Shown here piece after piece: positions 30,180 to 31,099 of a stretch of 32,569 nt of DNA (position 1 is its first letter; each line of letters begins with the position of its first letter). The position numbers were made by a program, and so were the translations under genes. This DNA is from Chitinivibrionales bacterium (GTDB lineage: Bacteria > Fibrobacterota > Chitinivibrionia > Chitinivibrionales > WJKA01). The stretch covers positions 1 to 32,569 of the forward strand of contig WJLZ01000151.1 of assembly GCA_014728215.1 (NCBI GenBank), in the 5' to 3' direction. The notes under the pieces are model-generated. The model was not told where the DNA came from. It did no database searches and saw only the letters and a program-made list of their open reading frames with translations.

Positions 30180-30689
30180 TTAAAATTTATCCCGATGCAC
30201 CACATCTTTTAAGTCCTTGCGAGGTCTGGAGTTATGCCCTTTTTCAGGATAGCCGAGCGGGGTAAAAACAACCGGCTCGATACCACCAGGCAGTTCCAGA
30301 ACCTTCCGTGCAGCCTGTGAATCAAATGCCCCTATCCAGCAGGTGCCAAGTCCTTCTTCGGTAGCAGCAAGAATCATATGATCCATAGCTATAGCTGCAT
30401 CCACAAATCCATAGGTTACCCCATCCATTCTTTTCCAGGCGGCATTCATATCGCAGCAGACCGCAATGATAACCGGTGCGGTATAAAACCATTCTCTGTC
30501 ATACACTTTCTGCAATTCTTTTTTCTTATTCTCATTCTCAATAACGACAAAATGCCATGGCTGATTATTGCATGCTGACGGCGCCAGGCGCCCTGCATTT
30601 AATACCTTGAGTACTTTTTCTTCTTCAACCGGTCTGTTTTCATAGCCTCTCACTGAGTAACGGGATTTAACCAGTTCCAAAAACGTCAC
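30180..30689 (-). CDS. Nitroreductase family protein
   Basis: A small flavin (FMN) oxidoreductase of 169 residues, likely a cytosolic dimer using NAD(P)H; natural substrates are unknown for most members. Features: FLELVKSRYSVRGYENRPV, AGRLAPSACNNQPWHFVVI (FMN phosphate-binding motif), VDAAIAMDHMILAATEEGLG, TCWIGAFD and the C-terminal VVFTPLGYPEKG. The frame extends upstream to 30824, but the GTG at 30687-30689 is preceded by aaaggagg five to six bases away and gives the normal family length. It lies 161 bp downstream of a strong terminator on the same strand, so it either has its own promoter, not clearly seen, or is reached by read-through of an attenuator. Confidence 0.88.
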   Translation of the reverse strand: MTFLELVKSRYSVRGYENRPVEEEKVLKVLNAGRLAPSACNNQPWHFVVIENENKKKELQKVYDREWFYTAPVIIAVCCDMNAAWKRMDGVTYGFVDAAIAMDHMILAATEEGLGTCWIGAFDSQAARKVLELPGGIEPVVFTPLGYPEKGHNSRPRKDLKDVVHRDKF

Positions 30690-30849
30690 CAGTCCCTCCT
30701 TTCTTGTGTTTAGCCTACAATAAATCTGGAGTTTCCAATTTTTGCGTATAGAAGTACCAGCAAAAATCAGGCCTGTTTGTTCCTGCTGTTTATTTTTATC
30801 TTTCAGTTTTCTATTTATCGACAAAACACTGTCTTAAAAACCGGAATAC

Positions 30850-30887
30850 AAAAAAAAACCCGCCGTTGAATTTCTCCAGCGGCGGGT
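30850..30887 (-). terminator. Strong Rho-independent terminator (minus strand)
   Basis: acccgccgttg at 30858-30868 pairs with cagcggcgggt at 30877-30887 (11 bp with one G-T pair, 8-nt loop). On the minus strand the stem is followed by an uninterrupted run of nine T residues (complement of 30850-30858). On the plus strand it would be followed only by gttattt. It ends whatever is transcribed from the promoter at 31071-31099. Confidence 0.85.
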
Positions 30888-31064
30888 GTTATTTCCTGAC
30901 ACTTGTGACTATTCAGGTCATTACACGCGCCCACCGCTGAAAAAGAGTGGCAGTGGCATGCACCGTAAGCATACGACACAGTGAGGGCTTTTGCCAGCTG
31001 CTGTTTTGTGATACTATGTTGCGACGTTTCATTGGTACTAACATTGAAAGAGTGTACTGTTTTG
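30858..31064 (-). ncRNA. Candidate structured RNA or attenuated leader upstream of the nitroreductase
   Basis: This segment of about 207 nt runs from the predicted start of a near-perfect promoter to a strong terminator and has no persuasive gene. Read on the minus strand it can fold several local hairpins: gtatgc/gcatgc with a 7-nt loop, ccactgc/gcggtgg with a 12-nt loop, and cctga/tcagg. A 43-codon frame (30913-31044, ATG at 31042-31044) ends before the terminator but has no ribosome-binding site. It could be a stand-alone small RNA, or a leader controlling the nitroreductase by premature termination. I could not match it to 6S RNA, SRP RNA, tmRNA or a known riboswitch. Confidence 0.4.
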
Positions 31065-31070
31065 CTGCTA

Positions 31071-31099
31071 AATATATACTTAAATGAAGGGGGTGTCAA
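31071..31099 (-). promoter_or_regulatory. Near-consensus sigma-70 promoter (minus strand)
   Basis: On the minus strand TTGACA (complement of 31094-31099) and TATATT (complement of 31071-31076) are separated by exactly 17 bp; only one of the twelve positions departs from consensus. Transcription would start near 31064. The -35 box lies in the left arm of a perfect inverted repeat. Confidence 0.75.

Follow-up and report, generated by a model that had tools for sequence, protein, structure and literature searches.

The window, that is the whole stretch of 32,569 nucleotides of Chitinivibrionales DNA that was analysed, contains a nitroreductase-family gene preceded on the same strand by a unit made of a promoter, a short open reading frame (ORF) and an intrinsic terminator (Table 1). 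The initial annotation had described a near-perfect promoter and a strong terminator bracketing this unit, and our results agree, since the promoter matches the consensus at 11 of 12 positions, the terminator (-19.7 kcal/mol) combines a hairpin with nine T, and both are kept in a congener. It also placed the nitroreductase about 161 bp past the terminator on the same strand, which fits a gene starting at the GTG at 30689. This GTG is the best candidate start because the protein of the congener, 71% identical, begins at the aligned residue. The longest nitroreductase ORF runs from a TTG at 30824; homology favours 30689, where there is an AGGAGG-like site, and the 5' extension (30824-30689) is probably untranslated.

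Table 1. Position of the nitroreductase leader elements in the window, and the ilvB-type leaders used for comparison
Feature	Coordinates	Strand	Details
Nitroreductase-family gene, regulated gene of the leader	30180-30689	minus	GTG start; PF00881, E 2.6e-33
Promoter TTGACA-17-TATATT	31071-31099	minus	TTGACA 31099-31094, TATATT 31076-31071, 17-bp spacer
Predicted leader transcript, ~215 nt if terminated	30850-31064	minus	Putative start 7 nt past the -10 box; end at the U-run
Putative leader-peptide ORF, 39 codons, MKRRNIVSQNSSWQKPSLCRMLTVHATATLFQRWARVMT	30913-31032	minus	Start and stop aligned with congener
MLTVHA, only conserved peptide block, proposed stall site	30955-30972	minus	Codons -9 to -4 before arm A
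Antiterminator arm A, within last ORF codons	30930-30942	minus	Complementary to arm B
Arm B, common to antiterminator and terminator	30874-30886	minus	5' arm of terminator
Intrinsic terminator	30850-30887	minus	Hairpin 30887-30858, then 9-T run 30858-30850
ilvB-type leaders			L301 (G000:C92, own genome), L295, L300, L296, L297, L293, L291, L292

Conservation in a congener

Comparison at the DNA level with 61 related genomes gave a match in only one congener (G001:C414, here L003), in which the order is as in the window: divergent sulfatase, promoter, terminator, nitroreductase, sigma factor and phosphoesterase. In a search that excluded close relatives, the sigma factor had its best matches (58-60%) in records of Latescibacterota, Calditrichota and Bacteroidota. 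The promoter hexamers and their 17-bp spacing are identical in the two species, and both parts of the terminator, hairpin as well as U-run, are kept, with compensatory changes. When the leader region is scanned by itself, consensus promoters are not above chance (five found vs 5.6 expected); given that the congener keeps hexamers, spacing, terminator hairpin and U-run, the predicted promoter and terminator do exceed chance. A fragment of a DUF4143-domain gene, absent from the window, separates the leader promoter from the sulfatase in L003 (1289-1825, minus strand).

In L003 the U-run ends about 27 nt before the nitroreductase start codon, and no promoter-like site was found in between. Since a gap of this size leaves no room for a promoter, the congener gene can be reached only through the terminator, which accordingly lies inside the nitroreductase transcript of the congener, and the unit is therefore best seen as a leader.

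The initial annotation had been unable to name an RNA family and had suggested a covariance search, which is consistent with what we obtained: at the gathering threshold no Rfam family (leader, riboswitch or T-box) matched the leader. Weak matches at a permissive threshold look like low-complexity chance, and an identity with 6S RNA was dropped, as RF00013 has no match at this locus or anywhere in the genome. A search of plasmids gave no match. A conserved 16-mer, TGCTTACGGTNCATGC, has one-mismatch matches in other genomes, where a control using the reversed pattern came out only a little lower, and matches on 19 viral contigs; both were treated as chance.

Alternative pairings and a short reading frame

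The minimum free energy of the leader is unexceptional (z = -0.76), and the signal lies in two alternative pairings rather than in overall stability. The antiterminator formed by arms A and B reaches about -24 kcal/mol in each species, a value matched by 0/1000 and 1/1000 dinucleotide shuffles, and 12 of its 13 pairs in the window are retained in the congener. Ensemble calculations that stop where arm B ends show about 94-100% formation of the A-B stem core in both species. The antiterminator and terminator pairings are mutually exclusive. At position 30878 a U in one species is a C in the other, and the bases that pair with it in the antiterminator (30938) and in the terminator (30867) have each gone from A to G, so that both stems are kept across species. 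A stem inside the antiterminator has likewise changed on both sides. The initial annotation had suggested looking for conservation and covariation in relatives; promoter, terminator and order are kept in the congener, and paired positions covary. No conserved anti-antiterminator that would hide arm A was found in the two species (118/500 and 209/500 shuffles as good); one candidate, the pairing of CCACUGC with GCGGUGG in the window, was rejected, being neither above shuffles nor kept in the congener. Nor did the 5' part of the leader show conserved structure in the two species.

The unit had been thought to contain no credible protein, a view that needs revision, since a 39-codon ORF that overlaps the antiterminator arm is shared with the congener. 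There the ORF has 40 codons, with a single in-frame 3-nt gap and 41% identity between the peptides, and a shared ORF of that length arose in 40/20000 column shuffles. Starting at the in-frame ATG at 31044 would lengthen the window peptide by four residues. There is no obvious Shine-Dalgarno sequence before the window ORF; the congener has a weak AAGG. We looked for strong codon-level constraint and did not find it: substitutions at the three codon positions number 14/16/16, vs 35/25/94 in the nitroreductase, so that the ORF has no third-position excess, and about 3% of shuffles give an amino-acid similarity as high. On these two grounds the leader peptide as a whole appears weakly constrained. 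The exception is MLTVHA, which is identical in both species and whose only two changes are synonymous. No Pfam match was found for the peptide. The stop codon follows arm A at a distance of 14-15 nt, which exceeds that in the leaders of ilvB and EamA genes described below, and a terminating ribosome may therefore mask arm A only partly.

Leaders of similar design

We scored the antiterminators of 81 strong terminators in 953 kb of the same genome. The window locus (-26.0 kcal/mol) and a locus preceding an EamA-family exporter gene (-25.3) are followed by a next credible value of -15.8; the median is -9.0, and another high score (L241, contig C1) was dropped, being GC-rich and lacking a covering ORF. 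Among these 81 terminators, only the nitroreductase and EamA loci credibly show the design. The EamA leader (L144) has a promoter-like TTGTGC-17-TATATT, an ORF encoding MIYSCAHITNWQWLRTVAVKARAFKADRHCQWWVT, an antiterminator (1/1000 shuffles as good) and a terminator before the exporter gene.

L144 was retrieved by a covariance model of the two nitroreductase leaders. The same leader design precedes an EamA homologue from another family of the order (L169, in G039), and broader searches brought up three leaders in G043. One of these precedes an MFS exporter gene whose best NCBIfam model, MdtG, stays below cut-off, another an EamA gene that shares 44% identity with the EamA of L144, and the third, which has a TTGACA-17-TATATT promoter, a small ORF. 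Across seven leaders from four genomes, a set whose members are not fully independent and were in some cases picked after inspection, 91% of the antiterminator cells and 97% of the terminator cells are paired, with nine and eight double changes respectively, and neither the paired percentage nor the covariation score was reached by any of 500 shuffles. In all seven an ORF runs across arm A and is closed by a stop ahead of arm B, with per-locus shuffle fractions of 0.002-0.135. Among the other nitroreductase and EamA homologues of the order no comparable leader was found beyond those named.

Matches of the R2 and R3 models below about 30 bits were mixed, most of those inspected being plain terminators or ilvB leaders. 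Separately, an attenuator-like leader (L288, minus strand, ~1394-1930, in G026:C48) stands before a decayed EamA gene of which only N- and C-terminal pieces are left, with an internal deletion and a stop. Six weak model matches that share a strand of G057:C1 (2995754-3000784), at intervals of about 1 kb, suggest a tandem array of ~1-kb units. In most of the non-ilv leader peptides a Trp codon lies some 30-60 nt before arm A (window 30996-30994, L003 ~1923, L144, L169, L174 and L207), which could be chance.

Eight more leaders, which came up with the last model, precede acetolactate synthase-like genes in the order, an identity that profiles confirmed for three of the eight genes. One is in the genome of the window itself (L301), before acetolactate synthase, with the leader peptide MFTNNTQLLNTILNISLVGLVVVIVNSKGGAVL. 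The peptides of these ilvB-type leaders are rich in Val/Leu/Ile, with arm A at the end of the ORF and the Val/Leu/Ile codons clustered 4-12 codons before it. Since this is the classic layout of an amino-acid attenuator, it suggests that the lineage uses this mechanism. The Val/Leu/Ile fraction is 0.28-0.54 in the ilvB leaders and 0.21-0.23, without any run, in the nitroreductase peptides, where MLTVHA (-9 to -4) occupies the control-codon position of the eight ilvB-type leaders and is not a codon run. By eye, a candidate leader peptide (MNYSVHLSLIIGILVITPYKAEG) and a terminator were also seen before a dihydroxy-acid dehydratase-like gene (L209, 1197-1400, in G043:C333).

Models of control and known systems

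Since the antiterminator arm lies within a conserved short ORF, the model that best accounts for these observations is a ribosome-dependent leader-peptide attenuator of transcription that controls the nitroreductase gene, to which we would give a probability of about 0.72. RNA polymerase would start at the strong promoter and make a leader of ~215 nt encoding a 39-residue peptide. If a ribosome stalled near MLTVHA, or if the ORF were not translated, arm A would be free to pair with arm B once the latter has been transcribed, the terminator would be blocked and the nitroreductase would be transcribed; a ribosome that reached the stop codon would instead mask arm A, leaving arm B to form the terminator hairpin together with the 3' arm, and transcription would end. 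Sequence comparison shows the pairings and where they lie; translation of the ORF, stalling and the direction of control we infer. The initial annotation had raised attenuation of the nitroreductase as one of its two options, and this option is well supported by the conserved synteny, the lack of room for a promoter in the congener and the conserved, exclusive antiterminator.

One may also consider an attenuator that works without the ribosome, in which arm A is sequestered or freed by an aptamer (riboswitch) or a protein-binding site made up of the first ~120 nt. Riboswitches use the same antiterminator/terminator pair, the block UAUGCUUACGGUNCAUGC shows nucleotide-level conservation and the ORF is without codon-position bias, all of which would suit such a scheme. 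However, one would then hardly expect a 5' part without conserved structure, the lack of a conserved pairing that hides arm A and of an Rfam match, or leaders of other genes that keep the ORF and the arms but not the block, and we therefore regard this explanation as unlikely. Another possibility is that the ORF is a small protein gene with a promoter and terminator of its own, the nitroreductase being transcribed by leaky read-through. The ORF ends are indeed aligned in both species, yet 41% identity, the absence of codon-position bias and the lack of a Pfam match speak against this, and both the conserved antiterminator at the ORF end and the recurrence of the design with unrelated peptides before other genes would be left unexplained, which makes this scenario quite improbable. 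As for a stand-alone small RNA ending at the terminator and acting in trans, the other option initially raised, the strong promoter and terminator around ~215 nt would suit it and a terminated leader RNA could accumulate, but it is very improbable given that the terminator of the congener lies within the only plausible nitroreductase transcript, that the unit travels with the gene and that what is conserved in it is an antiterminator which overlaps an ORF. Under the ribosome-dependent attenuator, a terminated leader RNA of ~215 nt should exist as a by-product, and some attenuator products are reported to act in trans.

The attenuation is probably induced by stalling, and the lack of a codon run together with the company of efflux genes favours stress- or drug-induced stalling over starvation for a single amino acid. 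Which stress would be the signal is a matter of speculation, ribosome-targeting agents or nitro compounds being the candidates we would name. A bolder proposal, which we put forward tentatively and consider rather doubtful, is that MLTVHA is a new arrest sequence answering a ribosome-targeting or nitro-aromatic compound and that the nitroreductase, EamA and MdtG-like leaders together form a detoxification regulon of the phylum governed not by a protein regulator but by stalling on leader peptides.

The mechanism as such is already known, and what may be new is the arrest peptide. A search of the literature found no paper that links a nitroreductase with leader-peptide attenuation, and a 2010 study described leader-peptide systems as having been shown only in Proteobacteria and Actinobacteria before its own Firmicutes cases (PMC2965389). 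The attenuators of ilvB, ilvBN and ilvGMEDA share with the nitroreductase leader a short ORF, an arm at or near its last codons, an exclusive intrinsic terminator and the gene that follows. The ilvB-type leaders differ in their peptides, 28-54% Val/Leu/Ile with the control codons 4 to 12 codons ahead of arm A, whereas the nitroreductase leader has MLTVHA in place of a run, and its gene is not biosynthetic. The attenuators of mef(E)/mel, erm(K) and vmlR are drug-inducible and have a leader ORF with stall-dependent antitermination before resistance genes (PMC4335068, PMC9226507), an arrangement that the nitroreductase leader would resemble; the MRLR-type stall peptide of erm(K) and mef(E) (PMC4335068) is absent from its peptide, and vmlR has an anti-antiterminator around its ORF, of which we found no counterpart here. 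The toiL upstream ORF of Escherichia coli topAI likewise senses ribosome stalling and signals it by base pairing (PMC12121999), although there a ribosome-binding site is hidden, with Rho-dependent termination as the consequence, whereas the nitroreductase leader would switch an intrinsic terminator. The nitroreductase leader and its relatives before exporter genes suggest that, in a phylum that has received little study, leader peptides detect a stress that disturbs translation and bring about detoxification and efflux in response, with the ilvB leaders of the same genomes providing an internal yardstick and MLTVHA marking a precise place to look for stalling.
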